Part shown: positions 7,327-43,162 of the stretch, piece by piece
How the letters are laid out: each line of letters begins with the position of its first letter
How positions within the stretch are numbered: the first letter of the stretch is position 1
Origin: Ignisphaera sp.
GTDB taxonomy: Archaea > Thermoproteota > Thermoprotei_A > Sulfolobales > Ignisphaeraceae
Length of the DNA stretch: 64,000 nucleotides
Assembly (NCBI GenBank): GCA_038735125.1
Contig: JAVYNU010000003.1
Coordinates: 104,296-168,295 of the forward strand
Direction: 5' to 3'
Program-made: the position numbers and the translations under genes
Notes under the pieces: model-generated
Seen by the model: the letters and a program-made list of their open reading frames with translations, nothing else
What the model was told of the DNA's origin: nothing
Database searches by the model: none

Positions 7327-8775
7327 ATGGTCACTAATTTAAAACGTATTAGTGATGTAATTTGGATGATTTCAAAAGAATACAAGAGATGTATGAAAGT
7401 TCCTGCAATTATATATGCTGATGATTTTTTGTTGAACAAGATGAAGGAAGATGCAACACTAGAACAAGCAGCAAATGTATCTTGCCTCCCAGGTATTGTG
7501 GGAGCTAGCTATACTCTTCCTGATGGCCACCAAGGCTATGGATTTCCCATAGGTGGTGTAGCAGGTTTTGATATAGAGAACGGTGTTATAAGTCCAGGTG
7601 GCGTGGGCTACGATATTAACTGTGGTGTAAGAGTCTTAAGAACAGATCTCACAGTCAAGGATGTGAAACCGAGGCTTCGCGAATTAGTTGAATTAGTGTT
7701 TAGAAATATTCCAAGCGGTGTTGGAGCAACAGGCAAAATTAGATTGACTGAAACAGAGCTTAATAATGTGCTTGAAGAGGGAGCTCAATGGGCACTTAGA
7801 CAAGGATATGCAACCGAATATGACATAGAACACACAGAGTCTAGAGGAAAAATAGAGGGGGCTAACGCAACAAAGGTAAGCAGAAGAGCTAAGGAGCGAG
7901 GAGCACCACAGCTGGGCACCCTTGGCAGTGGAAACCACTTTCTAGAGATTCAAGTTGTTGACAGAATATATCTTCCAGACGTAGCAAAAAAGATAGGGAT
8001 ATTCGAAGAGGGGCAAATAACGATAATGGTTCATACGGGTTCGAGGGGTCTTGGACATCAGGTTGCAAGTGATTATCTAATGATTATGGAGAGGGCTATG
8101 AAGAGATATGGAATAGAGGTGCCTGATCGAGAGCTTGCAGCAGTTCCCTTCAACAGCCCCGAGGGCCAAGACTACTTTGCTGCTATGGCAGCTGCAGCAA
8201 ACTATGCATGGGCCAATAGGCAGTTAATAACTCATTGGGCTAGGGAATCCTTTGCAAAAGCCTTTGGCGTTGCAGACTATGAGAAACTCGGTATAAAGAT
8301 AATTTATGATGTTGCCCATAATATTGCAAAGATAGAGGAACACGAATTTGAAGGAAGAAAAATCAAGCTGATAGTGCATAGAAAAGGAGCTACAAGAGCA
8401 TTTCCACCACAGCACCCTGAAATACCAGCAGACCATAGAGAATTCGGACAAATAGTGCTGATTCCTGGCAGCATGGGAACTGCAAGCTATATCACAATAC
8501 CAAATACTGGGGCAAAAGACTCGTGGTGGTCAGCACCTCATGGAGCTGGAAGATGGATGAGTAGAGCGGCTGCAATAAGAGCCAAGTCCCCAAGAGAAGT
8601 CGTTGAAATGCTGGAGAAGAGGGGAATCCTTGTAAGAGCTGCCACTATGAGAGAGCTATCTGAAGAAACTCCAGAGGCTTACAAAGATGTTGATAGAGTT
8701 GTAGATGTTGCTACAAAAGCTAATTTGGTAAAGCCCGTTGTAAGAATGGTTCCAATAGCGGTTGTAAAAGGTTAA
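7327..8775 (+). CDS. rtcB: tRNA-splicing RNA ligase RtcB
   Basis: A 482-residue protein of the RtcB family, the GTP- and Mn-dependent 3'-phosphate RNA ligase that joins archaeal tRNA exon halves. Visible family motifs are LPDGHQGYGFPIGGVAGFD, the metal-binding Cys in GGVGYDINCGVR, LGSGNHFLEIQ, HTGSRGLGHQ and the guanylylated-His region SAPHGAGRWMSR near the C-terminus. The length fits the inteinless form (about 480 residues). It stands alone, divergent from the ribosomal operon. Its substrates would include intron-bearing tRNAs such as tRNA-Met at 43.1 kb. Confidence 0.97.
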   Translation: MVTNLKRISDVIWMISKEYKRCMKVPAIIYADDFLLNKMKEDATLEQAANVSCLPGIVGASYTLPDGHQGYGFPIGGVAGFDIENGVISPGGVGYDINCGVRVLRTDLTVKDVKPRLRELVELVFRNIPSGVGATGKIRLTETELNNVLEEGAQWALRQGYATEYDIEHTESRGKIEGANATKVSRRAKERGAPQLGTLGSGNHFLEIQVVDRIYLPDVAKKIGIFEEGQITIMVHTGSRGLGHQVASDYLMIMERAMKRYGIEVPDRELAAVPFNSPEGQDYFAAMAAAANYAWANRQLITHWARESFAKAFGVADYEKLGIKIIYDVAHNIAKIEEHEFEGRKIKLIVHRKGATRAFPPQHPEIPADHREFGQIVLIPGSMGTASYITIPNTGAKDSWWSAPHGAGRWMSRAAAIRAKSPREVVEMLEKRGILVRAATMRELSEETPEAYKDVDRVVDVATKANLVKPVVRMVPIAVVKG

Positions 8776-8787
8776 TTAAGACATTAT

Positions 8788-8865
8788 TGTGGCCCCCGCA
8801 GAGACCCCGTATGCATATTCGCCAACGGCTCATTAATCATACGGGTCGGCCGTTTCGGGGGCCGG
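8788..8865 (-). ncRNA. H/ACA guide RNA (single hairpin, K-turn, ACA tail)
   Basis: Read on the minus strand, this forms an 8-bp lower stem (8863-8856 with 8798-8791), a pseudouridylation-type internal loop (left arm AAACGGCCGA, right arm GTCTCTG), a perfect 8-bp upper stem (CCCGTATG with CATACGGG), and an apical GA-GCC-GTT-GGC-GA motif that fits a kink-turn bound by L7Ae. The box ACA (8790-8788) follows the lower stem directly. Fifteen nucleotides separate the top of the pocket from ACA, the known H/ACA spacing. A TATA box lies about 26 bases upstream. The + strand reading, a GC hairpin after rtcB, lacks an ACA box. Confidence 0.85.
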
Positions 8866-8885
8866 ATAACTATTTAAATAATATG

Positions 8886-8896
8886 TATTATAAACC
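8886..8896 (-). promoter_or_regulatory. TATA box and BRE of the H/ACA RNA
   Basis: The minus strand reads GGTTTATAATA. The TATA centre (about 8891) lies about 26 bases from the first base of the RNA's lower stem, the usual archaeal TATA-to-start distance. This supports independent transcription of the guide RNA against the direction of rtcB. Confidence 0.65.
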
Positions 8897-8968
8897 TTAG
8901 GCTAGTTCACAGCTATTTCAAATTAAATTTATATACCTCTACACATTCTATTTCTATGGTAATGTACA

Positions 8969-9649
8969 ATGCCTAAAATACCTGTAAAACTAGTAGAGTG
9001 GAACGAAATTGTAGAGTGGAGCTGGGGTCTAGCAAAAAAGATTGAAAATGATGGTTATGTCCCTGAGATAATAATTGCAATTTCACGTGGTGGTTATGTC
9101 CCAGCGAGGCTTTTATGCGATTTTCTAGGCGTTGAAAATTTGGTGTCGATACAATCTCAGCACTGGACTGAAGCAGCAAAGAAGGGTGAAAGAGCTATTA
9201 TAAAGTTTGAATATGTAATAGATCTTTCTAATATGAACGCATTACTTGTTGATGATATTATTGATACAGGAGAGTCTGTCATACTTGCTAAGGAATATAT
9301 CCTGAAAAAATGGAGGCCCAGGGATCTACGAACTGCAGCACTTCAATGGATATCATCAGTAGCTAAAATAAAGCCTGACTATTACTACATGGAAGTGAAG
9401 GAGTGGTATTGGTTCCAATACCCATGGACAAGACTAGAGGATGTTACACAATTCATTAAAAGAATCTTAGAGTCAACATATAACGAGAAAAAGAAAAGCT
9501 CGTGGAACATTGATGAGATTATTGAAGCGTTTAGAGAATGGTATGGAATAGAGGTAGATAGGAGGTATATTGATGATGCGATAAACATGCTCAAGAAGAA
9601 AGGTATTGTGAAAAAGGTAAACAACGAGCTTATATTCCTACCCCAGTAA
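8969..9649 (+). CDS. Purine-type phosphoribosyltransferase with C-terminal winged-helix-like tail
   Basis: A 226-residue type I phosphoribosyltransferase. The PRPP-binding motif is NALLVDDIIDTGES (about residues 90-103) and the PPi loop region is IIIAISRGGYVPARLL. This family salvages hypoxanthine, guanine or xanthine. The last 65 residues (SWNIDEIIEAFREWYGIEV...INMLKKKGIVKKV) look like a small winged helix, an extension seen in some crenarchaeal members. The substrate cannot be assigned from sequence alone. A TATA-like TTTATATAC precedes it by about 40 bases. Confidence 0.85.
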   Translation: MPKIPVKLVEWNEIVEWSWGLAKKIENDGYVPEIIIAISRGGYVPARLLCDFLGVENLVSIQSQHWTEAAKKGERAIIKFEYVIDLSNMNALLVDDIIDTGESVILAKEYILKKWRPRDLRTAALQWISSVAKIKPDYYYMEVKEWYWFQYPWTRLEDVTQFIKRILESTYNEKKKSSWNIDEIIEAFREWYGIEVDRRYIDDAINMLKKKGIVKKVNNELIFLPQ

Positions 9650-9677
9650 AACTTTGTAATACGAAAGGAATATTTCA

Positions 9678-10286
9678 ATGCTTTCAACATGCAACCAACA
9701 ATTAGATGCTATCTTATTCTCTAGACCATCTAAAACTATTGTGTATGGTGTTGCAGGCAGTGGAAAGACGAATTTCCTATTAAACATACTTAAATGTTCA
9801 AAAATGAATAATAAAAATATTGTTTATATATCAACTGAAGATCCTGTATTTATGAATAGAGCCATCGAGCTAGGTCTCGAATCAAATAATTTTTATTTTG
9901 CATCTGCTCTAAGTCAAGAGCACTTAATTTCATTGATTCTTGAGAGTATACAATTTAATATAGTTATGATAATTATAGATAGCATTAACCACTTGTATAG
10001 AGTTGAATCTGAACGAAATAGTGCATCCAAACTCTTTGTCGACATCCTTGTACTACTGGATTCGTTGAATAAAAAAGGAATCACAGTTGTTGCAAGTGCG
10101 CAGGTTAAACTTGTAGAAAACATTATTGCAGGTTATGAGTACCTCGATATCTGGGCTGATAAAATAATTGAAATAAGAGTGCTTCCAAATAAGACGAGAA
10201 CCATAAGAATTATAAAACCAGCTATTTCTCATGAAATGTCATTTGTTATAACAAGCAAAGGGGTAAAATGGCTCCACAAAACTTAG
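9678..10286 (+). CDS. RecA-fold ATPase of the RadB/KaiC-like group
   Basis: A 202-residue single-domain P-loop protein. Walker A is GVAGSGKT (about residues 24-31), Walker B is NIVMIIIDSINHLYR, and a downstream GITVVASAQVK strand fits the RecA-type core. It lacks the N-terminal helix-hairpin-helix of RadA, so it resembles RadB or crenarchaeal RadA paralogues that modulate recombination. It starts 28 bases after the phosphoribosyltransferase and is probably co-transcribed. Confidence 0.75.
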   Translation: MLSTCNQQLDAILFSRPSKTIVYGVAGSGKTNFLLNILKCSKMNNKNIVYISTEDPVFMNRAIELGLESNNFYFASALSQEHLISLILESIQFNIVMIIIDSINHLYRVESERNSASKLFVDILVLLDSLNKKGITVVASAQVKLVENIIAGYEYLDIWADKIIEIRVLPNKTRTIRIIKPAISHEMSFVITSKGVKWLHKT

Positions 10287-10310
10287 TTCCTAAGCAAACT
10301 CAAAGTTATT

Positions 10311-10526
10311 CTATTTATCGCTAGAATTCGAAGACCCTCCCTTCGCTGTTTTCACATCCTTACTTAACAGATCTGGATATTTGCTCAATAATCTGTATTC
10401 AACATATTTATCTTCTGGCGAAAACCTTGGAGGATGAGGTATAATAGTTTTATTACCACATTTTGGACATATTTCCTTTAAGGTGTATGTTTTACAATTT
10501 GGGCATTTCCTTATTCTCCATCTCAT
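10311..10526 (-). CDS. nop10: H/ACA RNP protein Nop10
   Basis: A 71-residue protein with an N-terminal zinc ribbon ([17 protein letters not shown]) followed by the [16 protein letters not shown] segment characteristic of Nop10. It bridges Cbf5 and L7Ae in H/ACA ribonucleoproteins. The C-terminal tail ([11 protein letters not shown]) is a little longer than usual. It is the last gene of the minus-strand replication/translation operon, and an H/ACA RNA lies 1.5 kb away. Confidence 0.95.
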
Positions 10527-10531
10527 TAACC

Positions 10532-11350
10532 TTATCCTTTTTGCAATTCTTCTCTTTCAAAACTATATGAATCTATTTCCAGATCCTTTGAAAGTTTTTC
10601 AATGAGTTCTGATATCTTAGTAAAGGCATCTTCAGCTGATCTATATTCGTGCGCCTCAATTTCAATTCTGTATTTTGGGGCTCCTATAGTATATATATCT
10701 ATTTTAATGTTGGAACCTGCAAAGGCATTTTTTACCTCTGTTAATATATTCTTTATTCTATCGATGCCATCTGGTTTATAAGATACTATTTTTGCAATAC
10801 CCCTAATCTTCACAGTTTTTATTACAATATGCTTTTTAGCCTCCTCATAAACTGCCTTAGCCCAAGATTCTTCAATTCCCATTTCCCTTAACTTTTCAGG
10901 TCCTTTCATTACAACCTCTTCTAGTATAGACAACGGATCTATACTTTTTTCGAATTTCGACCAGACTTTTGAATATGCTTCATCAAGTGTTTTTGACATG
11001 TTTTTAGCAACTAATTCTATTATTTTTTGGGCTTTCTGCAATCTTTTCCATCTTAGCATTTTAATCTTTTTCTCTCCTTCCATCACCCTCTTTAATGAGA
11101 TGTCTACTTCTATCTTTGTAGGCTTCTTTTCTACTCTAATTACCTTGCCTACAACAACTTGTTTTTCTTTCAAAATCTCTCTGATATCTTTAACGTACTT
11201 TGTGCTTATCTCACTCCATGGAATAAAGGCTTCAAGATTTTCATACTCTAGCAGATCAGCGTAAGCCCCATAATCAAATACTTTCTTTACTTGGGCCACA
11301 ACTAGCTCTCCTACCTCTGGCACACCTTTTCTTCTAAAAGGCAAGCTCAT
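10532..11350 (-). CDS. eif2a: Translation initiation factor aIF2 alpha subunit
   Basis: A 272-residue protein. It has an N-terminal S1 OB domain ([21 protein letters not shown] with FIPWSEIS), a central helical domain ([18 protein letters not shown]), and a C-terminal alpha-beta domain that contacts aIF2 gamma ([20 protein letters not shown]). Length and domain order are as expected. It is followed directly by Nop10, the conserved archaeal arrangement eL42-eS27-aIF2alpha-Nop10. Confidence 0.96.
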
Positions 11351-11418
11351 AAAGGTTCTGCCCTCTTTATAATGAAAATATATTACATGTGGCTATACAA
11401 AAACATTTTGTGCTTGGA

Positions 11419-11622
11419 TTATCCTAAAATCCTGACTATCTCAGCATTAACCAATTTAGCTTTTCCTCCAGTAGGCTGAACTATCACTGAGCCACATACT
11501 AGGCATCTTACAGGAAAAGTTGCATGATCAAACACTGGTTGTTCGTTTCCACAAACATTACACTTTACTCTTATAAATTTACTCCGTGGTTCTGGAATTA
11601 GAATCCTCCTTTTTTTGGCCAT
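11419..11622 (-). CDS. rps27e: Small-subunit ribosomal protein eS27
   Basis: A 67-residue zinc-ribbon protein ([20 protein letters not shown]...CLVCGSVI) with the conserved C-terminal [17 protein letters not shown]. It starts ten bases after eL42. A TATA-like stretch in the 68-base gap before aIF2 alpha (around 11370-11390) could give that gene its own promoter. Confidence 0.96.
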
Positions 11623-11631
11623 GCGGTACCC

Positions 11632-11919
11632 TCACCCATGCTTCTCAGCTAGCTCTGCTCTTTTTAGTCTTATACCTTCTCTATGTATTGTGTATCCACA
11701 TTTAGAACACTTAAGCTTTAGCACAACTTTTTTCGTGACCTTGGCGAATCGCTTTTGTTCCGGCTTTCTCTTTGAGCCATATCCTTCTTGCTTTCTAAGA
11801 TACCTTCTTTGCCCCTGTGCCAATGTTCTTCTTTTACCATGCTTGTATATAGCAACACTATGTTCTGTGTGTGTCTTGCACTTCGGACAATATGTTATTA
11901 TAACTTTTGGTATTTTCAC
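11632..11919 (-). CDS. rpl44e: Large-subunit ribosomal protein eL42 (L44e)
   Basis: A zinc protein near the E site. CxxC pairs occur at YCPKCKTHT and KCSKCGYTI, with [19 protein letters not shown] between them. The open frame extends to an ATG at 11958 (108 residues), but a GTG at 11919 gives [14 protein letters not shown], the family-like N-terminus of about 95 residues. I chose that start. The extra [13 protein letters not shown] segment has no counterpart in eL42. Confidence 0.92.
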
Positions 11920-11985
11920 TGTAATCACATCAACCCAGTTGTTTCTTCTATTACCCATTTTTTGCAGGATTTATAAGCAATGTTG

Positions 11986-12477
11986 TTAGAATAAGTCAAT
12001 TACTTTCACAAAACCAAGTATTGAAAGAAGTACAGCCTCACCTATAGGTAGAGGTATTATGTAACCCGGTAACGCTAGCGAAAATCTGATTTGACACGGT
12101 TTTAATATTTTGCATAATACAGCCCCATCTGATAACAATAATGTGTTTTGCAAGATGTTATTAAAGCTATCTAGAGTTTCTTTCAACTTCTTTAAGAAAG
12201 AACCAAAAATGTCTGTATCTATCTGCAAATCACCTCCTACAGCATTAGTTACGGCCAATAAAGATGCTGTGGACAATATCATTGACACGTTTTTATCAAA
12301 TTCAATACACAGATCTTTTAATTCTGCATATTGATTTTCATTGCACCATATCTTCATATCTAAAGTCAGTTTATTTATCGTTTCAAAAATGGCATAAATA
12401 TCCTTAGAACTTATCTTCTCATTATTTAATATAGCATCAAAAATCTTTTTGATTTTCTCATATAATTCTGAGTACAT
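11986..12477 (-). CDS. Candidate GINS complex subunit (Gins51/Gins15-like)
   Basis: A 163-residue protein with no strong motif, but with a GINS-like layout. Residues 1-115 are mostly helical (LYEKIKKIFDAILNNEKIS..., SFLKKLKETLDSFNNILQ). The last 45 residues (VLCKILKPCQIRFSLALPGY, then IIPLPIGEAVLLSILGFVKV) resemble the small GINS B domain, with a strand, a 'lP' turn and a terminal helix. It is directly downstream of priS (eight bases apart), where crenarchaea such as Sulfolobus carry gins15. Size also fits (about 150 residues). The assignment is mostly by position and pattern. Confidence 0.6.
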   Translation of the reverse strand: MYSELYEKIKKIFDAILNNEKISSKDIYAIFETINKLTLDMKIWCNENQYAELKDLCIEFDKNVSMILSTASLLAVTNAVGGDLQIDTDIFGSFLKKLKETLDSFNNILQNTLLLSDGAVLCKILKPCQIRFSLALPGYIIPLPIGEAVLLSILGFVKVIDLF

Positions 12478-12484
12478 AGCTCAG

Positions 12485-13681
12485 CTATCGCCTTATTGAC
12501 ACAAGTTCTGCTACATTTTTAAATACGAGATACGAGGCATATGGGTACTCCGTAACTATGATATCCCCTTTTCTTGCTTTAAATTCTCTATCTATTATTC
12601 TTAATTGAGGTAAATCCACTAATACCCGTAACTGAAGTAGCTCACTACCACTACTAATTGAAACATTATACGAATCCAGCTCAAACTCAGATACATTTCT
12701 AATCAAAAAAGCTTTCCAGCCTGTCTTTCCATTTACACTATTTGGAGCTCTAACAAGATGTGAAATATCTATGGTAACTTTAGAATCTATTGGAATATAT
12801 AATTCATTAAGTATTTCCTCAATCCACTTTGATATAATTTCTGATACTTGTACTAGTTTAGAATAATCAATTTTTTCGCTATAGCCCATTAAAAAACTTT
12901 TTATGTTCTCGTCAGAAACCCTTTTCAATAGGTGTAATGCTATTCTTCTTCTTAAACCACCATCAGTAGCTCTTGGTAATATATATCCTAGCTCTTTTCG
13001 CTCTCTAGCACTACCCATATACATATTTACAACATATTTTCTATCAAAATCATTTAGCGTTATATATGAAACTATTTCTCTTCTCGCTTCTGAGTCCATT
13101 CTATCGAATGGCTGAGACAACTCAACAATTAGGTGGAATCCTCTATTTCCAGAAAAACTCGCTTTATAAGTTAAAAATCCAAAATCATTCTCAATAATGT
13201 CTATAAGCTTAAGCAGATAGCTATGTGCTTTTTCAACGCAAGTCCTGTCCACATGCTCAAATTTTTTAAGTTCTAGATGGCAATATGGACATTCTTTTTC
13301 ATCACTTTTTGCTATATATCCACACCTAGGGCAGAATCTAAAATCTATAACATACTTACTGCAATCCGGAATATCGTTTGAATCTATATCGAATACTAAG
13401 TCACTACCAATCCATCCTTTTTCAGACATTTCATTATTACCTGGGTAGAGGTATTTTGCTGATGAATAATATAGATGACGGGGAACATTTACTAATATGT
13501 ATTCTCTAAGTTGCGTTGACGAGTCAAATGATAAATGACGAACATAGTAATCTGCATCAAAAGGCTGTAAAGCAATCTCCCTGAATGGAAGGTCTTGGGG
13601 GAGTTCTAGAGAAGCCATCCTATAGTATTCTCTAATTTTTTCCTTAAAAAAATCCAGTACCACACCTCTTCTTTGACTCAA
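12485..13681 (-). CDS. priS: DNA primase small (catalytic) subunit
   Basis: A 398-residue archaeo-eukaryotic primase. The metal-binding acidic pair is in SDLVFDIDSND, a zinc-binding module follows (RFCPRCGYIAKSDEKECPYC), and SFSGNRGFHLIVE is the SGxRGxH motif. It forms a heterodimer with PriL, which is not in this window. It is somewhat longer than the Sulfolobus enzyme (about 330). It is located between PCNA and the GINS-like gene, a replication operon. Confidence 0.95.
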   Translation of the reverse strand: MSQRRGVVLDFFKEKIREYYRMASLELPQDLPFREIALQPFDADYYVRHLSFDSSTQLREYILVNVPRHLYYSSAKYLYPGNNEMSEKGWIGSDLVFDIDSNDIPDCSKYVIDFRFCPRCGYIAKSDEKECPYCHLELKKFEHVDRTCVEKAHSYLLKLIDIIENDFGFLTYKASFSGNRGFHLIVELSQPFDRMDSEARREIVSYITLNDFDRKYVVNMYMGSARERKELGYILPRATDGGLRRRIALHLLKRVSDENIKSFLMGYSEKIDYSKLVQVSEIISKWIEEILNELYIPIDSKVTIDISHLVRAPNSVNGKTGWKAFLIRNVSEFELDSYNVSISSGSELLQLRVLVDLPQLRIIDREFKARKGDIIVTEYPYASYLVFKNVAELVSIRR

Positions 13682-13711
13682 TTAACATCACGTTTTTGTT
13701 TTATTACATTA

Positions 13712-14524
13712 TTACTCCATTCTTGGAGCAATGAAAACCTTTAATATGGCTCCTCCAATCATGTCTAAATCTATCTCGCAAGGTATTTCAGGTGCTAATT
13801 TAATTGTAGTAGTTTCTGCAAGCTTCGTTAACTGTGTCAATGTTGAGATATATTCCATGGAATATGAATTAACAAATTCTTCAACATCTTCAGCTATTTG
13901 ATAATCTATCAAAGTACCCGTAGACACATTAAATAGGAATTCTACCTCACCAAGCTCTGTAGAAGCCATTAATGCTAGACCATCTTTTAATGCTTTGATC
14001 TTCGCTACCTCACCCATATCCTCCAGTATTGATAAAGCCACTGAGAGTGCTGGGCCAAGGATTTTAGCAACAACTTTGAATTCTAGAGATAGTTCAGGTA
14101 TTTCCTCATATGATGACGATATAAGTGGTAATATAAAGGTTCTTTGTGTGCCACCTTTAGAAATGAGAGAAAGGCTTAGTCTACTACCATCGCTATATAG
14201 CGCAAGCTTATCTGATTTAGATGCTCTTCTAAGTATTTTCGAAACACCCTCTAGATTTAGAAACAATACCTCATCTTTTTCAACGACATATTCTTCAAAG
14301 GCGGTGGGAGGAATGCTGAAATCCACAAGCATTACCCGACTTGGATCCATAGCCCTTATTCTAACACCCTCATTAGGACTGACCTTCATACCTACAACCT
14401 CTAAATAGTCTGCAAGTGTTCTTAAAACATACCTCCAAATCCTAGCATCTCCAAACACAAATCTAATGGTTGTAGCGCTACTCAATTTTTCCACCAATAA
14501 TAAAGCTGAATACTTTTTAGACAA
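13712..14524 (-). CDS. pcn: PCNA sliding clamp, paralogue A
   Basis: A 270-residue clamp subunit with two repeated PCNA folds. Typical segments are GVRIRAMDPSRVMLVDFSIP, followed by AFEEYVVEKDEVLFLNLEGV, and a C-terminal LAPEIPCEIDLDMIGGAILK ending in FIAPRM. The N-terminus is about 20 residues longer than usual (MSKKYSALLLVEKLSSA); an internal start would give the standard 248 residues. Crenarchaea commonly assemble heterotrimeric clamps from distinct paralogues, and a second copy lies 390 bases upstream. Confidence 0.94.
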   Translation of the reverse strand: MSKKYSALLLVEKLSSATTIRFVFGDARIWRYVLRTLADYLEVVGMKVSPNEGVRIRAMDPSRVMLVDFSIPPTAFEEYVVEKDEVLFLNLEGVSKILRRASKSDKLALYSDGSRLSLSLISKGGTQRTFILPLISSSYEEIPELSLEFKVVAKILGPALSVALSILEDMGEVAKIKALKDGLALMASTELGEVEFLFNVSTGTLIDYQIAEDVEEFVNSYSMEYISTLTQLTKLAETTTIKLAPEIPCEIDLDMIGGAILKVFIAPRME

Positions 14525-14558
14525 AATATAAATGATGCGCTTAAATGAGCGCCTTGAG

Positions 14559-14918
14559 TTATAGGCATTTTAAACCCTTTGTCTTTCCTAATTCAAGAGC
14601 TTTTTTATTGAGCACAATTTTGCATTTATACTCTCCATGTTCTTCATCTATACGTCTACAAGTAATAGCTATCAAATCATTTCCTATATCTGATATGATG
14701 TCTAACATGTTCTTTAAAGGGTTTACAGCTATACATATAACTGGGTTGTTGGATCCAGGACCTAGTATTTCAATTTTTTGCGTATCCTCATCAAATAATA
14801 GAATTAGCTTATCCCCTTCTTCAATATCTAGCAGTAGTCTTAAAGTGGATGGTATTGTTATCCTACCCTTTGAATCAACCTTTACAACATCAGCGTGCAT
14901 CAAGTCACCGTTGTTCAT
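14559..14918 (-). CDS. AbrB/SpoVT-type DNA-binding protein with a second small alpha/beta domain
   Basis: A 119-residue protein. Residues 7-50 form an AbrB swapped-hairpin domain (VVKVDSKGRITIPSTLRLLL, then IEEGDKLILLFDEDTQKIEI). Residues 57-110 look like an ACT-like fold (NPVICIAVNPLKNMLDIISD, LIAITCRRIDEEHGEYKCKI). It starts inside the last codons of the upstream PCNA (ATGA overlap) and precedes the second PCNA by 34 bases. It is therefore embedded in the clamp operon and could be its regulator. Confidence 0.75.
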   Translation of the reverse strand: MNNGDLMHADVVKVDSKGRITIPSTLRLLLDIEEGDKLILLFDEDTQKIEILGPGSNNPVICIAVNPLKNMLDIISDIGNDLIAITCRRIDEEHGEYKCKIVLNKKALELGKTKGLKCL

Positions 14919-15676
14919 GCTCTGGGCGCTATCCAGACCTCTACCCTGCCTCCACCAGTTATCTCAAAAGCTATCTTCAAAGGCTTGTCTGCCCCAAATG
15001 CAATACTGCATTCCTCTGCAAGAGTAAGAAGCTTTGCAACAGCCTTTAAATGTTCAACACTATACCTAGCAATACTGCTACCCACTGAAGATTCTAGGTA
15101 TGTTAATGGTTGAAACTGTTTTAATATAGTTTCATATGACCCTAGATCACCATGAGCTGTAACTTTTATCCCATTTAGCTCTGACGAATATATAAACGAG
15201 GCCTCCTCACCCAAAATACTGATATCCTTTATAACGGATATTAGCTCATCTGCTGGAAGGTTTGCTGACACTTCAAGTTCTACATTCAATGATCCTATTC
15301 TCTCGAAATTAATCTCAGATAGAGGAACTGCATATTCTCTTTCTAAATTACTTCTAACGTTAAAAACCTTAACCTTTAGTTCTCTACCACCGGCCATATA
15401 CTCAAACGATACCTTATCCCTTTTTGTAGCCCTTCTTAGCGATTTGACAAACTCATCTCTATCAGCAATAATTTTTATCTCTTCACTAACGCTATACTCT
15501 TCAAATGCTGATGACGGAATTGAAAATATGATCATGGATACCTTATCGGGTGAAAGCGCCTCAATCGAGAACTGGTCTAATGATACCACAATCGGTATTT
15601 GATCAACAATGCCTTTCAAAGCTTGCGCCACATTCTTTATTACCGCTCCAACAGGATATGTAATTCTTGCACTCAT
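14915..15676 (-). CDS. pcn: PCNA sliding clamp, paralogue B
   Basis: A 253-residue clamp of standard length. It has the same architecture as the neighbouring paralogue (LDQFSIEALSPDKVSMIIFS, AFEEYSVSEEIKIIADRDEF, and the terminal FEITGGGRVEVWIAPRA), but the two are clearly diverged. It opens the operon PCNA-AbrB-PCNA-PriS-GINS-like-eL42-eS27-aIF2alpha-Nop10, judging by tight spacing throughout. Confidence 0.94.
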   Translation of the reverse strand: MSARITYPVGAVIKNVAQALKGIVDQIPIVVSLDQFSIEALSPDKVSMIIFSIPSSAFEEYSVSEEIKIIADRDEFVKSLRRATKRDKVSFEYMAGGRELKVKVFNVRSNLEREYAVPLSEINFERIGSLNVELEVSANLPADELISVIKDISILGEEASFIYSSELNGIKVTAHGDLGSYETILKQFQPLTYLESSVGSSIARYSVEHLKAVAKLLTLAEECSIAFGADKPLKIAFEITGGGRVEVWIAPRA

Positions 15677-15752
15677 GGTGCTACCTCAAACAAAAATTTT
15701 ACCTTTTCAAATCTATAAAATTATCGGCCTAAAATCTCTAAGGCGATTACAT

Positions 15753-16121
15753 ATGAAAATCAGGGTCTTTACAATACTTGGCGGATATACAGCATTAGAG
15801 ATTGATGCAAATAAAGCACCAGAGTTGCTTAATAAACTTAGAGATGTGCTTGGTAAAGGAGGAGAAGATGTAGAGGATACTATAAGAATGATACAACACT
15901 TTGACACCTTCTACAATGTTATGCAAAAAAAGTTTAAAGATTTCCTAACACCTAAAAAAAATGTTAGCGAACTATTGAAAGGAAATGTACTAGTAGACAA
16001 AATAAAGCTTGTTAAAAAAGACAATAGCAAAACAATTGTAATAGTTTTTGATAGATCTATAAGCAGAGAAATGATTAAAAATGCCTTAAATAACCTTGGC
16101 TATGAATACGACGAATACTGA
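15753..16121 (+). CDS. Conserved-looking protein of unknown function
   Basis: A 122-residue soluble protein, divergent from PCNA. I chose the ATG at 15753 because the upstream part of the frame runs back across the PCNA coding strand and promoter. The N-terminus (MKIRVFTILGGYTALEIDAN, then ELLNKLRDVLG) reads like a beta-beta-alpha unit. The C-terminus (TIVIVFDRSISREMIKNALN) suggests another strand and helix. No catalytic motif is evident and I do not recognise the family. Confidence 0.7.
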   Translation: MKIRVFTILGGYTALEIDANKAPELLNKLRDVLGKGGEDVEDTIRMIQHFDTFYNVMQKKFKDFLTPKKNVSELLKGNVLVDKIKLVKKDNSKTIVIVFDRSISREMIKNALNNLGYEYDEY

Positions 16122-16284
16122 ACTTTGCATACTTTTAACTCTGTAGCTACAAAATGTACAACAAATTCCAACACTGTTTATGCCTCCATAACCAAAAAAT
16201 AAATGTATAAGATCTTATATCATATGCTCATTATACCTATTATCTTGATTAAAGACTTTTAGTATAGTTAAGCAGATGATTCAC

Positions 16285-16563
16285 CTATTCTTTTCTTTTT
16301 CTTCTACCCCGCTTCTTAGTGGTCTCGACTTGCATTTGAGGTTGCTGGATAATTGCATCTATAATCTTTTTTGCATCCTCAAATGTGATCTCTCCCTTAA
16401 CTAGCCTATCCCATGTTTCTGAACGAAGAATGAACATCTCTAGTTCTTGAGGTGAAAAAGCTACGTATTCTACCTCTTCACTTTCGGCATATATTTCGCT
16501 AGACTCTTCTTCGAGAGCTTCTCTTCCTTCCTGAGTTTCTGACGAAATTATTTCTTCTTCCAT
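16285..16563 (-). CDS. rpo13: RNA polymerase subunit Rpo13
   Basis: A 92-residue protein with a strongly acidic N-terminal third (EEEIISSETQEGREALEEES), a short helix-turn-helix (MFILRSETWDRLVKGEITF, then EDAKKIIDAI) and a basic Lys/Arg tail (KKRGRRKRKE). This is the exact layout of the Sulfolobus Rpo13 subunit, including the Glu-x-Trp-Asp and Gly-x-Ile-Thr positions. Rpo13 binds in the RNAP cleft near downstream DNA and is restricted to Crenarchaeota. It is monocistronic with A/T-rich flanks. Confidence 0.88.
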   Translation of the reverse strand: MEEEIISSETQEGREALEEESSEIYAESEEVEYVAFSPQELEMFILRSETWDRLVKGEITFEDAKKIIDAIIQQPQMQVETTKKRGRRKRKE

Positions 16564-16701
16564 TTATACACCCTCATTAAGAGGTGACAAACTTATTCAA
16601 ACATTTACATGTTAAAAGCTTTTATAGCAAAACTCTATATGAATAGTTAAGAGAGTTATAGAGCTAATCAATTTTGCGTTATATATTTACGCATTTTTAT
16701 T

Positions 16702-16893
16702 CTAAGCTGTGCTACACTGCCTCAATATGATGAATAATGTAACTGAGGCAAGAATGACTATAACTATGAAAACATTTAGAATATCTGATGCTAACAATTT
16801 GGCTTCAATTGTTAATGCAAATAGGGTAAGCATAGCTAAGATGTTGAATATTAGTATTCTTCTTGATAAACTACTTTCGACACAGATTTTCAT
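16702..16893 (-). CDS. Small two-TM protein, candidate CedA2
   Basis: A 63-residue protein with two hydrophobic helices (about 13-32 and 38-58) joined by a short EAKLLASD turn. The ATG overlaps the stop of the large membrane protein upstream by four bases, which is good evidence that it is a real, translationally coupled gene. In the Sulfolobus DNA-import system the two small membrane proteins CedA1 and CedA2 flank CedA; this one would take the CedA2 place. Sequence is too short to be decisive. Confidence 0.55.
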   Translation of the reverse strand: MKICVESSLSRRILIFNILAMLTLFALTIEAKLLASDILNVFIVIVILASVTLFIILRQCSTA

Positions 16894-18269
16894 AGTACTA
16901 CCCTCAGCCTAGCTGTTCCACCTATTGCCTTGGCCAGCCCTATTGAAATCGAAATAAGCAATGACATATACAAAGCTGCACCAATAATATCCACATATAT
17001 GACACGAATCAGCTCATCAAAGATTCCAGGAAGATTATTATAATTCATGATCCTAGATTGAGCAATATAAATATAGCTTTCACTTGGTTCAAGCTTTTCA
17101 TACGCACTCTGTTCTAAGTTTATCACTACCTTATGTAATCCCTCAGGAATATTTATCACATATGTCTTTCCAAATAAATCAAACCAATTCCACTTATACT
17201 TGATATATCTATCTACATCCTCAATGGCCTCTGAATCTATATTCAATGACTTTATGTTATAGGCATCAACTATAGAAATATACAAATCGAATTTTTGGTG
17301 AGAAACAAAATAAACCTCTACATAGTTTTCAGTAAAAATAGTTACATTTACATGATCTGGAAATGGTGCAACATGTAAAGCTACACCCTTTCTATAATCT
17401 ATTAATCCTAGAACCCTTAAATTCAGTCTACATAAAAATGGTACAGAACCTTGACTTGAACTTCTGCATAGGCTAAATATTGAAACATTAGTTATATTTG
17501 TGTAGAACATGTGACCACATACATCAAAATATATAGTTACATTCCCTCTATAATCAGTTAATATTGCGTAAACACCAGAATATGTTGGTAGTGGTGCGAT
17601 GTATTCACCATTATATTCTAAGCCTATGAAGCCTTGTGAAATAACATGGTCATCCATGTTAACTATAGAGCCATATACAATAAAATCACCTGGATTAGAA
17701 GATGCGGGAAATATTAATGTCTTAACAAACTGTAGGTATAGTGGTAGAGCAGAATTAAATACTAATGCAAATGCTATGAGAAAAGCTCCTGCTCCTCGAG
17801 CTACTCTAAATGGTATTGCCATTAGAGCTAAGCCCAATGACAATAGAACCCAAAAAGAATATTTAACAAAAACTGATAGGCTATACATAACTAATAACGT
17901 ATAGAGCGAGGCCGTAATGCTATTGATGACCATTGAAATAAGCCTGGCCATCCCTGATAAAAACATTGTCTTAGCCAATAAATCTCTGAAGAGACCCAGC
18001 GTAAGCAAAACATATACTCTACCAACAATAGTTGCCTTTATGTACGATAAGAAGAAATCCCAATCTCCACCCAATACACTTTGGATAATACTAGCCAGCG
18101 CTGTTATTGAGGACAAACTAAACAGCAGCACCATTACATAAAGGGCGTCTGCAATTAGCCTTGGGGCCCATCGTTTCAAACCAGTTAGGGGTATAGGAAG
18201 GGCATAAATAAGCACACCAATATAAAATGTCAGAATTGATAAATAGTAAGCTACTAGCAACAGGTACAA
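16890..18269 (-). CDS. Polytopic membrane protein, candidate CedA (VirB6-like DNA import channel)
   Basis: A 459-residue protein. Residues 1-190 carry about six hydrophobic helices. Residues about 195-415 form a polar, beta-rich, presumably extracytoplasmic region with several NxT/NxS sites (NVTIYFD, NITNVS). A final helix (YVDIIGAALYMSLLISISIG) closes it. Its first loop (LPIPLTGLKRWAPRLIADAL) closely matches the loop of the small neighbour at 18322. With two-TM proteins on each side, the cluster matches the crenarchaeal Ced DNA-import system; the large soluble insertion is an elaboration relative to the short Sulfolobus CedA as I recall it. Confidence 0.6.
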   Translation of the reverse strand: MYLLLVAYYLSILTFYIGVLIYALPIPLTGLKRWAPRLIADALYVMVLLFSLSSITALASIIQSVLGGDWDFFLSYIKATIVGRVYVLLTLGLFRDLLAKTMFLSGMARLISMVINSITASLYTLLVMYSLSVFVKYSFWVLLSLGLALMAIPFRVARGAGAFLIAFALVFNSALPLYLQFVKTLIFPASSNPGDFIVYGSIVNMDDHVISQGFIGLEYNGEYIAPLPTYSGVYAILTDYRGNVTIYFDVCGHMFYTNITNVSIFSLCRSSSQGSVPFLCRLNLRVLGLIDYRKGVALHVAPFPDHVNVTIFTENYVEVYFVSHQKFDLYISIVDAYNIKSLNIDSEAIEDVDRYIKYKWNWFDLFGKTYVINIPEGLHKVVINLEQSAYEKLEPSESYIYIAQSRIMNYNNLPGIFDELIRVIYVDIIGAALYMSLLISISIGLAKAIGGTARLRVVL

Positions 18270-18321
18270 CGCATACCCCTACGTTTCTAGCTGAATACAT
18301 TAAAATGGCTCCAAAAATAAT

Positions 18322-18594
18322 TCATGGAAGCTGAGGTGATGGTGGAGGAGGAAGAGCGTTGCCTATATAAGACGCTATATACGTTATAAGCCAGAATATT
18401 GTTGTTCCTACTGCTACCCAAAACGCGCCCCATACAGCATCCTCAATAAGCCCCTGTCCAATTTTTCTGACTCTTCCCATGGGTATCGGAGCTCCTTTTA
18501 TTGCCCATCCTATTAACCATGTAAGGAAAAATAAAAGCCAAGCTACCACAACGGTTTTGCTAATCAAATCTTTTATCAATGTTATAATGTCCAT
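18322..18594 (-). CDS. Small two-TM protein, candidate CedA1 (conjugation-type pilin)
   Basis: A 90-residue protein with two hydrophobic helices (about 13-33 and 53-78) around a basic loop (APIPMGRVRKIGQGLIEDA). This is the two-helix layout of VirB2-like pilins, and CedA1 of Aeropyrum has been reported to form such pili. The tail is Pro-rich (LPPPPSPQLP). A TATA box (TTTTATAAG, about 18625) precedes it, so it is probably the first gene of the three-gene unit. Confidence 0.6.
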   Translation of the reverse strand: MDIITLIKDLISKTVVVAWLLFFLTWLIGWAIKGAPIPMGRVRKIGQGLIEDAVWGAFWVAVGTTIFWLITYIASYIGNALPPPPSPQLP

Positions 18595-18651
18595 TTCTTA
18601 TCCCGCTATATTTAGAAACCTTATAAAATGTTTCTTGAGAACTAATATGAG

Positions 18652-21546
18652 TCAATCCCAATACTTCCTTGTTCTTAAAAACCTCTCCTCATATTCCAAG
18701 ATATTCTGTATAAGCGTATTCATGTCAAAAGCTTTTGATAACACTTTTTTCGAATTTTCAATCCCAATCCCAATACCTTGTAATGCTATTAAGAAGGCTA
18801 GGCCATATTCCATTAACATGTTGGCTATCTCAGCAGATTTTTCAAGTACCTTTCGTTCTTCAATATTCAGTTTATCTAATTCAGCAACATTTCTAGCCTT
18901 AGAGATCGCTTTTCTCAACACATTTACTTCATCATCATTCTCCACAACTGTTATAGCTTTAGAACCGCAAAAAGGACATGAGATGGGGCATTTAAAAGGG
19001 TTATCAGTTTTACATATGTTATCTAGATGTGCATTAATGTTAATTTCAAATAATTTGTTGCATATCATACAAAACGCTTTGACACTTTTGTTTAGAAGCC
19101 TTCGCTTTGCAAGTTCTAATATTAACTCTTTTGATAATGCAGAGCTTCTAATTATGTACCTTAATGAGCCAAGTTGCGTGATTTCCTGTAAAAAAGGAGA
19201 TGGCTTTTTGACAACAATTATCCTAATTTTCAAGCCTCTTTTCATTGAGTCTATAAACTTTCCAACCTCTTCAATATCGATTTTCTCTACAAGTAATTCT
19301 CTAACAGTTTCATTAACAAGAATTGGCGTTGCCATTAGACTACTAACTATTCTTTTTATTTCCTTGATATCACTGTTCTTTGATATTATCCCCATCTTTC
19401 TTGCAACATTGATAAGATTTCTCTTGAATATAGAGGTTTTTTTCAGCTCTTCAACTATAAAATCCCTTATTAAACCCTTTTCATGAATATCAAGAAGTGT
19501 GCTCAAAACTCTTTTAACGTCATTGACATTAATAGGCGAATCTATGAGCACTACAGTACCAAGTTGATGTGATTTATATGTATTCCCTATTCTCAGATAT
19601 TCTCTTAGGATTTTTGATATAAGTATCGAGAAAGCTTCTGAAGCTTTCGAGCCTAAGCATGTATAGATGGCTAGAAGAGTTTTGTTTTCATTAGGTATTC
19701 TCAGAAGTTCTATTGTAAGAACCCTATCATTTGGATAAACTTTGCAGATAGCTTCTCTATTTGCTAATAGGAATTCTTTAAGATCTTTGTCTACATTATA
19801 TAAGCTTAAAAGATGTTCTATACAGCTAGGTTCATTACATGTACAGAAACGTCTAAGAAAAGAACAAACTTCTCTCGAGACCTTTCTATCAACTGGAATA
19901 TTCTCTCCAACCCACCTAGGTAGTACAATCTCTGCAAGTTCTGTATATGGAGCTAGCCAAACAGTTTTCTCATCAAACTCTACACTGATAACTTTCCAAG
20001 GCCTGCCAGCCAACACTATAATGTCGCCCTCATTGCATGTTGCTATAAAATCTTCGTCTAATGATGCCACAACTTTGTGATCTATTATTGACTTTGCTAA
20101 ATACCGTGTAGTATCTGGTATCATGTTGGTTGTAACATAGTATATGTAGCCCCTCTTCGTACTCTGGCAACGCATTGAATTACCATTGTCAGTGCATTTC
20201 ACAAGACCAATTTCATTTAGAAACGATATAATTTCCTCTATATTATCCAGTGTTATATCCTCAAAGAGTGGTGATTTCTTAACAAGTCTGAAAAAATCGT
20301 CTATATCAATTGAATCTCTTTCTATAGCCATACCCACAAACTGGTGGGCCAAAACATCCAAGCTGTTGAAATGCATTTCTATACGTTCTAGATCCCCCCT
20401 TTGAAGCCTCTTCGCAATAATAAGAGATTCTACAATTTCTGAAATTATTGGTGGATTAAGTATTATCCCTTTAGATATGCCCTCTTCTCTATGCCCTGCA
20501 CGACCAACACGTTGCATAAGCTTAGTAACTTGCCTGGGCGACAGATATTGTATCACATAGTCTACTGTTCCAATGTCTATTCCTAGTTCGAGACTTGATG
20601 TTGCAACAACAAGTTTTAGGGAACCACTCTTAAAATTCTTCTCTACATATTCTCTTTCAATCCTAGATAACGATCCATGATGCAACCCAACAACATTTTC
20701 ACTGAGTTTCTTATTCATTCTAAGCATAAATCCTAGTTCTTCTGCAGCTGTCCTAGTATTTGTGAAAACCAATACTTGTCTATAGAGAGCTGAGTCGGCA
20801 ACCTCAGCAATTTTATCAACTACTTTTTCTGTACTGAAGATCCCACCTTGGTAGCTCTTATCTGTTAGCCCAACTGTTACATCATAAATCTTTTGTGTTT
20901 TCGATAAAGCGACATCGAAAGATCTATGTGAAAAGATGATGTTGCCGATGTAATTTACATCAAACTCATTTATTGAGGCTGACAAGGCTATTCTTCTAAT
21001 ATGTCTACTTAGCATCTCATCTAATCTCTCAAGAGATAGGAAAAGTTCTACACCTCTTTCATCATTTATTATCTCTTGTAGTTCATCAACAATAACTGCG
21101 TAAAGATTTGCTAAATGTTTCTTCAAATCATTTTTTATAAGCAATATTTGAAAGCTTTCTGGTGTGGTGAGAAGAATATTTGGAGGATTCTTCATAATTC
21201 TTTTTCTAATTCCATATGATGTATCGCCATGCCACACATCTACGCTACATCCAAATACTGCACAAATATTTTCTAATCTCGATTTAATATCCCTATTCAA
21301 GGCTCTTAACGGTGTAATATAGATCATTGCAATAGATGAATTTCCATTCAAAAAACCTTTTCTAGATAGTTTAACTAGGAGAGGCACTATAACGGCTTCT
21401 GTTTTTCCTGATCCCGTAGGGGCAACCACTATTAAATCTCTGTCGTGTTCCATAATTTTGGAAAAAGTTTTTCTTTGAATATCTGTTGGATATGCAAAGC
21501 CTACTTGCGAAAACCAATAAAGCACATCCTCCACATTGTTTTTCAT
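18652..21546 (-). CDS. Lhr-family DEAD/H helicase
   Basis: A 964-residue superfamily 2 helicase. Motifs visible are APTGSGKT (Walker A, residues 42-49), ITPLRALNRDI, LLTTPESFQ, VIVDELQEI (motif II, residues 152-160), ALSASI, VATSSLELGID and QRVGRAGHRE. The DTSY..R and GVELFLSLERL segments are typical of Lhr. Motif II reads DELQ rather than the usual DEIH/DEVH. The C-terminal third includes a Cys cluster (CMICNKLF ... CPISCPFCG) that could bind zinc. Lhr helicases act in DNA repair and RNA surveillance. It stands alone, divergent from a membrane protein. Confidence 0.9.
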   Translation of the reverse strand: MKNNVEDVLYWFSQVGFAYPTDIQRKTFSKIMEHDRDLIVVAPTGSGKTEAVIVPLLVKLSRKGFLNGNSSIAMIYITPLRALNRDIKSRLENICAVFGCSVDVWHGDTSYGIRKRIMKNPPNILLTTPESFQILLIKNDLKKHLANLYAVIVDELQEIINDERGVELFLSLERLDEMLSRHIRRIALSASINEFDVNYIGNIIFSHRSFDVALSKTQKIYDVTVGLTDKSYQGGIFSTEKVVDKIAEVADSALYRQVLVFTNTRTAAEELGFMLRMNKKLSENVVGLHHGSLSRIEREYVEKNFKSGSLKLVVATSSLELGIDIGTVDYVIQYLSPRQVTKLMQRVGRAGHREEGISKGIILNPPIISEIVESLIIAKRLQRGDLERIEMHFNSLDVLAHQFVGMAIERDSIDIDDFFRLVKKSPLFEDITLDNIEEIISFLNEIGLVKCTDNGNSMRCQSTKRGYIYYVTTNMIPDTTRYLAKSIIDHKVVASLDEDFIATCNEGDIIVLAGRPWKVISVEFDEKTVWLAPYTELAEIVLPRWVGENIPVDRKVSREVCSFLRRFCTCNEPSCIEHLLSLYNVDKDLKEFLLANREAICKVYPNDRVLTIELLRIPNENKTLLAIYTCLGSKASEAFSILISKILREYLRIGNTYKSHQLGTVVLIDSPINVNDVKRVLSTLLDIHEKGLIRDFIVEELKKTSIFKRNLINVARKMGIISKNSDIKEIKRIVSSLMATPILVNETVRELLVEKIDIEEVGKFIDSMKRGLKIRIIVVKKPSPFLQEITQLGSLRYIIRSSALSKELILELAKRRLLNKSVKAFCMICNKLFEININAHLDNICKTDNPFKCPISCPFCGSKAITVVENDDEVNVLRKAISKARNVAELDKLNIEERKVLEKSAEIANMLMEYGLAFLIALQGIGIGIENSKKVLSKAFDMNTLIQNILEYEERFLRTRKYWD

Positions 21547-21640
21547 ATTTATTGAAACCTTGGTTATATACTATATTTTTGTTCTGCAAACAGCATATAT
21601 ATTTTTGGTTAAAGCTTTAATAGTTGCTGAGTGTTGTATC

Positions 21641-22303
21641 ATGAGAGAAGGGAATAATTCTAAACTCACATATTTTCATGTATACACAACAATTCTAGGT
21701 GTTGTACTCTTGCAACTCTATTCTATGCTATTAAACAATCCAAATTTAAGTATATTCACATATTTAGCTTTTCACGGCTTTAAAGTTGATAGCATACAAA
21801 ATTACATCATCGACTCTTATTTAATTACTGCTAGTCGCTTTCAAAAAATACTTGTATTTGTTATTGCATCTATCATACTAATGTCTGTAGATGTAGTAAG
21901 GGTGCTCAAATATAACGGTCAACATCAGCTTCTGCTGGAGGTGCTCCTATACTTCATCTTCACAGGTGATGTTGTATCAACACTAGTGCTATTCATTATA
22001 GTTGCTTCACTATTGAGAATCTTAAAACCATTTTTTAACGCACATAGGATAGAAAAAGAAAGTGTCAACAACGTCAACAATAAATTATTATTGTCAGACC
22101 TATTCATAGCCGTTGGTACAACAATAATAATTTTGTGCCTAGAGATTTTGTTCTTCAGATTCATAACACTGCTTACAACAATAGTATATCTGACATTATT
22201 TACCATAATTGCTTTGGCGAAATTTTATCAGCTATCAATTTCATATTTTCTGGAGATTTTATTGATATCAATTCCGCCTTTTGGATTGGTGATTCTTATA
22301 TAA
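21641..22303 (+). CDS. Hypothetical polytopic membrane protein
   Basis: About 220 residues with five or six hydrophobic segments (VYTTILGVVLLQLYSML, KILVFVIASIILMSVDV, LLYFIFTGDVVSTLVLFIIV, LFIAVGTTIIILCLEILFF, LTTIVYLTLFTIIALA and a C-terminal helix). I start it at the ATG at 21641, because the in-frame upstream part overlaps the helicase promoter region. I see no family signature. Confidence 0.6.
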   Translation: MREGNNSKLTYFHVYTTILGVVLLQLYSMLLNNPNLSIFTYLAFHGFKVDSIQNYIIDSYLITASRFQKILVFVIASIILMSVDVVRVLKYNGQHQLLLEVLLYFIFTGDVVSTLVLFIIVASLLRILKPFFNAHRIEKESVNNVNNKLLLSDLFIAVGTTIIILCLEILFFRFITLLTTIVYLTLFTIIALAKFYQLSISYFLEILLISIPPFGLVILI

Positions 22304-22322
22304 ATTCTAAGAGGTTCTGTTG

Positions 22323-22595
22323 TTACTTAACCTCTACGATCTCTATCTTATGCCATGAAGTGAGTGGAGCAAGCTCTTTTATCAATTCTTCTACGTGTTT
22401 CCTAATCTCTTCTATGTTAGCATAAACAATAAGATCTATATAGTAAAACCTTTCAATAATATTGCTATGACGAATGTTAAAACTACATACACCTCCTTTG
22501 CAAATATTATTCAATTTTTCTGAGATATAACTTAATTGATTCTCATCGTTAATTAATAAAAACATGTTTATTCTTTTTACAGCTTTTGATGACAT
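22323..22595 (-). CDS. Small protein of unknown function (ferredoxin-like fold suspected)
   Basis: A 90-residue soluble protein whose order of strands and helices (RINMFLLINDENQLSYISEK, IERFYYIDLIVYANIEEIRK, IEIVEVK) suggests a beta-alpha-beta ferredoxin/ACT-like domain. Two cysteines (CKGGVC) sit in a loop. It is downstream of uL23 with a C/D guide RNA in the gap. I cannot assign a function. Confidence 0.6.
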   Translation of the reverse strand: MSSKAVKRINMFLLINDENQLSYISEKLNNICKGGVCSFNIRHSNIIERFYYIDLIVYANIEEIRKHVEELIKELAPLTSWHKIEIVEVK

Positions 22596-22619
22596 TAATA
22601 TGAATCCTCATAAGCTTTG

Positions 22620-22678
22620 TGATTCAGGTAGGGGGATCCTGTCATCATTTTTCAGTACTCGGCCGTTACATCATTTTA
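22620..22678 (-). ncRNA. Box C/D guide RNA between uL23 and the 90-residue gene
   Basis: On the minus strand the order is C box ATGATGT (22674-22668), 12-nt guide AACGGCCGAGTA, D' box CTGA (22655-22652), 3-nt spacer, C' box ATGATGA (22648-22642), 14-nt guide CAGGATCCCCCTAC, and D box CTGA (22627-22624). Spacing is canonical for an archaeal sRNA bound by L7Ae, Nop5 and fibrillarin. Predicted methylation (fifth base from D/D') is on the C of target UACUCGGCCGUU and the fifth base (G) of target GUAGGGGGAUCCUG. Only the last base of the C box deviates. Confidence 0.85.
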
Positions 22679-42996: not shown

Positions 42997-43070
42997 TACA
43001 AATACACCAAAGATATTATCATCTGGGTAACATATTTATTAGGTTGGAACCCAATATTAGAATTGATTAG

Positions 43071-43162
43071 TGCCGCCGGCGGGACTTGAACCCGCGACCA
43101 CCGGATCTCCCAACCCGCCTAGCATATGAGTCCGGCGCTCTACCGGGCTGAGCTACGGCGGC
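43071..43162 (-). tRNA. tRNA-Met (CAU) with an 18-nt intron
   Basis: The acceptor GCCGCCG pairs with CGGCGGC with A73; no CCA is encoded (CTA follows). The anticodon stem CCGGA/TCCGG encloses CTCATA, then 18 extra bases (43124-43107), then A38. The intron is thus at the canonical 37/38 site. The 74-nt mature form with this acceptor fits an elongator tRNA-Met better than an initiator; tRNA-Ile2 (CAU) is not excluded. Splicing would need the archaeal endonuclease and RtcB. Confidence 0.92.

Follow-up and report, generated by a model that had tools for sequence, protein, structure and literature searches.

We consider it probable that the two guide RNAs encoded on the minus strand of the window (the whole 64,000-nucleotide stretch of an Ignisphaera sp. 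contig analyzed here) come from two separate genes with separate tasks. Judging from complementarity to rRNA, the C/D RNA would guide 2'-O-methylation of 23S rRNA at C1860 through its D' guide and, likely, at G1945 through its D guide, and the H/ACA RNA would direct pseudouridine formation at some place other than the C/D site. A sequence-only reading had placed a guide RNA at each of the two locations, which both the architecture and the homologs bear out. The two RNAs are new members of known guide RNA kinds. Rfam returned a weak match at the right place and strand for each, HgcG (Pab40 H/ACA; 17.8 bits versus a gathering score of 77) and sR5 (C/D; 20.1 bits versus 40), and since both scores fall far below gathering, neither RNA is assigned to a family. 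Among the literature matches listed, no title deals with Ignisphaera guides, a statement that concerns those matches and claims no absence in print.

The C/D RNA gene and its predicted 23S rRNA targets

The C/D RNA gene was delineated by its boxes and its homologs and comprises the following elements, the boxes being read directly from the sequence:

22624–22674, minus strand: C/D guide RNA gene
22668–22674, minus strand: box C, ATGATGT
22656–22667, minus strand: D' guide, AACGGCCGAGTA, pairing with 23S ACUCGGCC and predicting Cm1860
22652–22655, minus strand: box D', CTGA
22642–22648, minus strand: box C', ATGATGA
22628–22641, minus strand: D guide, CAGGATCCCCCTAC, with 23S 1941–1953 as its likely target
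22624–22627, minus strand: box D, CTGA

The order C, D', C', D is complete, with AAA between box D' and box C', and box C carries a final T, not A. The gene sits between two minus-strand ORFs, the upstream one of which we take to be uL23. The pattern TGATG-N3-8-GCCNAGTNCTGA, used to seek homologs of the D' guide, matched 53 of the 197 order genomes and, within the family, 13 of 18, whereas the reversed-pattern control was matched in 2 of the 197.

In this genome (G000), the D' guide pairs with 23S 1857–1864 over 8 bp. When this genome is considered alone, the fit at 23S 1856 ties by score with one at 23S 2943, and it is the relatives that decide between them. The D' guide reads TTTGCCGAGT in 38 of the 53 order genomes, which is the complement of 23S ACUCGGCAAA. 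In the relative G010, 23S reads ACUUGGCAAA (UUGGC) and the guide TTTGCCAAGT (GCCAA), with 12 of 12 letters paired; hence guide and 23S rRNA have changed together, in a compensatory manner, at the very nucleotide predicted to be modified. The box D' +5 rule places the 2'-O-methyl group on 23S C1860, which aligns to E. coli 1672, a position presumably located at helix 61. The sequence-only reading had predicted this modification at the C of ACUC, and the 23S site, backed by the compensatory change in G010, is consistent with that prediction. Helix 61 is listed as a methylation hotspot in the portion of Dennis et al. (2015, PMC4644070) used here. The C/D RNA provides a clear case from nature in which a guide and its rRNA target have covaried at the position predicted to receive the modification.

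An extra C near 23S 1864 is present in G000 and G003 (CGGCCAAG), and five other relatives read CGGCAAAUU. The letter of the D' guide that faces the extra C is G in G000; at this place, T occurs in 11 and A in one (that of G001) of the 12 further D' guides found in the family. G003 has the extra C but lacks the matching guide letter, and its D' pairing extends over only 7 bp. The G in G000 may have been kept because it restored pairing with the extra 23S C.

The D guide fits 23S 1941–1953 (CUAGGGGGUCCUG), a stretch that is identical in all seven genomes compared, and the D guides of eight relatives pair with it at 11 or 12 of 13 positions. The D guide of G000 contains one C more than those of eight relatives, which leaves a bulge and ~7 bp of pairing adjoining box D. 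Methylation of G1945 (E. coli ~1764) is the likely outcome of this pairing. Complementarity of the kind expected of a C/D guide is accordingly found next to both boxes, namely, to 1857–1864 next to D' and, in relatives, to 1941–1953 next to D. An earlier suggestion that the target be sought around E. coli 1770 points to a region near the likely target of the D guide.

The double-guide box C/D sRNAs described in the parts of Dennis et al. (2015, PMC4644070) drawn on here, where 262 of 489 sRNAs are counted as double guides, likewise combine boxes C, D', C', and D with two guides, and the Ignisphaera RNA is of the same kind, with its two 23S target sites ~85 nt apart. It differs from those archaeal RNAs in the short D' pairing (8 bp) and in the extra C of the D guide.

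The H/ACA RNA gene and its conservation

The second gene encodes a single-hairpin RNA with a lower stem, a pocket, an upper stem, and an ACA box, and was delineated by a covariance model match, covariation, and its fold:

8788–8863, minus strand: H/ACA guide RNA, single hairpin
8856–8863, minus strand: lower stem, 5' strand, GGCCCCCG (helix 1 of the covariation count)
8846–8855, minus strand: left pocket arm, AAACGGCCGA, variable among relatives
8838–8845, minus strand: upper stem, 5' strand, CCCGTATG (helix 2 of the covariation count)
8814–8837, minus strand: apical part with UGA / GA, which we take to be K-turn-like; ATGA and GA are conserved in the alignment
8806–8813, minus strand: upper stem, 3' strand, CATACGGG (helix 2)
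8799–8805, minus strand: right pocket arm, GTCTCTG, with TCTC kept in 16 homologs read out
8791–8798, minus strand: lower stem, 3' strand, CGGGGGCC (helix 1)
8788–8790, minus strand: ACA box, ACA or AUA in homologs

Covariance model R1 matches this RNA at 8787–8863 and identifies homologs in 17 of the 18 family genomes, making it a guide RNA present across the family, but in none of the 179 other genomes of the order, where the filters were strict and weak homologs may be lost. BLAST alone recovered the RNA in 10 of the 18 family genomes, and a search with model R2, counted as a sequence search only, returned the same 17 of 197 genomes. The fold is more stable than expected from dinucleotide shuffles (z = −3.16), with an equally good fold in 1 of 200 shuffles. 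Across the stems of 14 homologs, both sides have changed at 13 of 19 pairs and standard pairs occupy 91.7% of the cells, and neither the both-side-change count nor the standard-pair percentage is matched in any of 500 shuffles; the number of pair types in these stems is not above the shuffles (335/500). This count covers 14 of the 17 homologs; G008 was omitted for its long loop, G013 for its near-identity to G014, and G015 because it was not read out.

The upper stem is separated from the ACA box by 15 nt, inside the 14–16 nt reported for archaeal H/ACA RNAs in the sections of PMC4652768 used here. The same source describes Pyrococcus and canonical Pyrobaculum H/ACA RNAs that likewise consist of one hairpin with a pocket, a K-turn-like upper part, and an ACA box. 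In comparison with the RNAs in those sections of PMC4652768, the right arm of the Ignisphaera RNA stands out in being nearly invariant in the family: TCTC is present in all 16 homologs read out, and the left arm varies in both letters and length. An RtcB-like ORF (7327–8775, plus strand) converges tail to tail with the H/ACA gene (8788–8863, minus strand), leaving 12 bases from its stop codon to the H/ACA end. RtcB neighbors that carry the name Ignisphaera are 82–83% identical, and the closest one, at 96%, is named only at the level of Thermoproteota, so that Ignisphaera is the likely genus.

Candidate targets of the H/ACA RNA

The nearly invariant right arm implies a nearly fixed target on that side; scans of 16S rRNA, 23S rRNA, and tRNAs revealed none. 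For G000, the scanned set consisted of the complete 16S, the complete 23S, and 46 tRNAs. A tentative candidate for the site of action elsewhere is 16S U852 (E. coli U891) or 23S U1037/U1038, and we regard pseudouridine formation there as a doubtful possibility. With 13 sets of arms, the best sites that place a U first in the pocket are 23S 1038 (mean 23.54) and 16S 852 (23.46), and the latter also leads a joint scan of three genomes (23.3). Nevertheless, shuffled RNAs reach the top U-first score in 6 of 20 cases with the 13 arm sets and in 3 of 40 in the three-genome scan, such that no U-first rRNA site stands above shuffles in either scan. Furthermore, pairing at both 16S 852 and 23S 1037/1038 would involve several wobbles on the 5' side, where the portion of Toffano-Nioche et al. 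(PMC4652768) used here sets a limit of one, and the second U of the 23S 1037/1038 site is a G in G010 and G011. Candidate targets among tRNAs were set aside: a CGGAGA[UC] fit to the H/ACA arms exists in four of the 46 tRNAs of this genome, with the other side pairing poorly. Among the tRNA genes in the window, that for tRNA-Met (CAT), at 43070–43162 on the minus strand, measures 93 nt, which is longer than usual, and likely contains an intron.

A single 23S site of action for the two RNAs appears unlikely, even less likely than the two U-first candidates, although the evidence on it points both ways. Under this scenario, 23S 1851–1864 of G000 would be read by both machines, with the C/D RNA methylating C1860 and the H/ACA pocket binding UAGGGA and CGGCC at ~1851–1864 in a nonstandard register, either to produce pseudouridine at 1859, beside Cm1860, or to bind without modification, as a folding chaperone might. 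When the H/ACA arms of seven genomes were placed on their own 23S rRNAs (3' part), columns 1857 and 1858 ranked first and second of 1246; they retained these ranks with G-U scored zero, and ranked first and third when a three-letter gap was allowed. Likewise, across the 16S, 23S, and 46 tRNAs of G000, 23S 1857 is the best mismatch-free fit if no U is required. Permuted arms reach the score at 1857 in 6 of 3000 trials when both arms are permuted, in 8 of 3000 when only the left arm is, and in 89 of 3000 when only the right arm is, the last figure being the only unbiased one because the pair of RNAs was chosen for its left-arm match. However, the best fit puts AC or CU in the pocket, with no leading U where pseudouridine is made, and when the whole 16S and 23S rRNAs of three genomes are scanned, the C/D site ranks fourth for the H/ACA RNA, with top scores as high or higher in 12 of 30 shuffles. 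The fit also includes two wobbles in the 5' duplex, and the relevant passages of Toffano-Nioche et al. (PMC4652768) allow at most one and report a third unpaired target residue as unfavorable.

Variation between species further separates the two guides. At the varying 23S columns 1860 and 1864 in seven genomes, the C/D guide is paired in 13 of 14 cells, whereas the H/ACA arm is paired in 8 of 14, lacking a pair at column 1860 for G002 and at column 1864 for five of the seven genomes. Thus, the expectation that both guides would track a common target between species is borne out for the C/D RNA and not for the H/ACA RNA. A search for 23S rRNA in 11 relatives without an rRNA match, run with no positive control, found nothing. 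Should the two RNAs nonetheless meet at this site, it would allow one to test whether the two modification machines compete or act in a set order. We retain the reading of two separate guides, with the H/ACA RNA likely acting elsewhere, as the preferred one.

The nine-letter run shared by the two guides

The initial impetus for linking the two RNAs was a common core, AACGGCCGA, which is indeed present in both the H/ACA left arm (8855–8846) and the D' guide (22667–22656), each read on the minus strand. The proposal built on it, namely, pseudouridine followed by Cm at a joint target, is not supported: the joint target ACUCGGCCGUU is missing from the 16S, the 23S, and the tRNAs found in this genome, the 23S site puts AC or CU rather than a leading U in the pocket, and the UC register that would place pseudouridine at the U before the methylated C ranks 310th of 1246 23S columns, with an H/ACA arm that does not track the rRNA. 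In the genome assembly (1.81 Mb, 99.89% complete), ACTCGGCCGTT has a single exact match, which is the C/D gene itself read in complement; with at most one mismatch, it is found at three places, and of the two one-mismatch places, neither a stable RNA, one separates two ORFs and the other falls within an ORF.

Random 10-mers and 12-mers share a run of at least nine letters in 4 of 200000 draws at a GC content of 0.5 and in 19 of 200000 at 0.7, figures that do not amount to a fair test because the guide pair was picked for its match. In a comparison of 12 genomes that have both guides, the two share at most nine consecutive letters in G000 and at most three to five in each of the other 11, and the nine-letter run depends on the G of the G000 D' guide that is unique among the family D' guides found. 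Given that this letter may have been kept for its pairing with the extra 23S C, the likeness of the D' guide to the H/ACA arm would be incidental.
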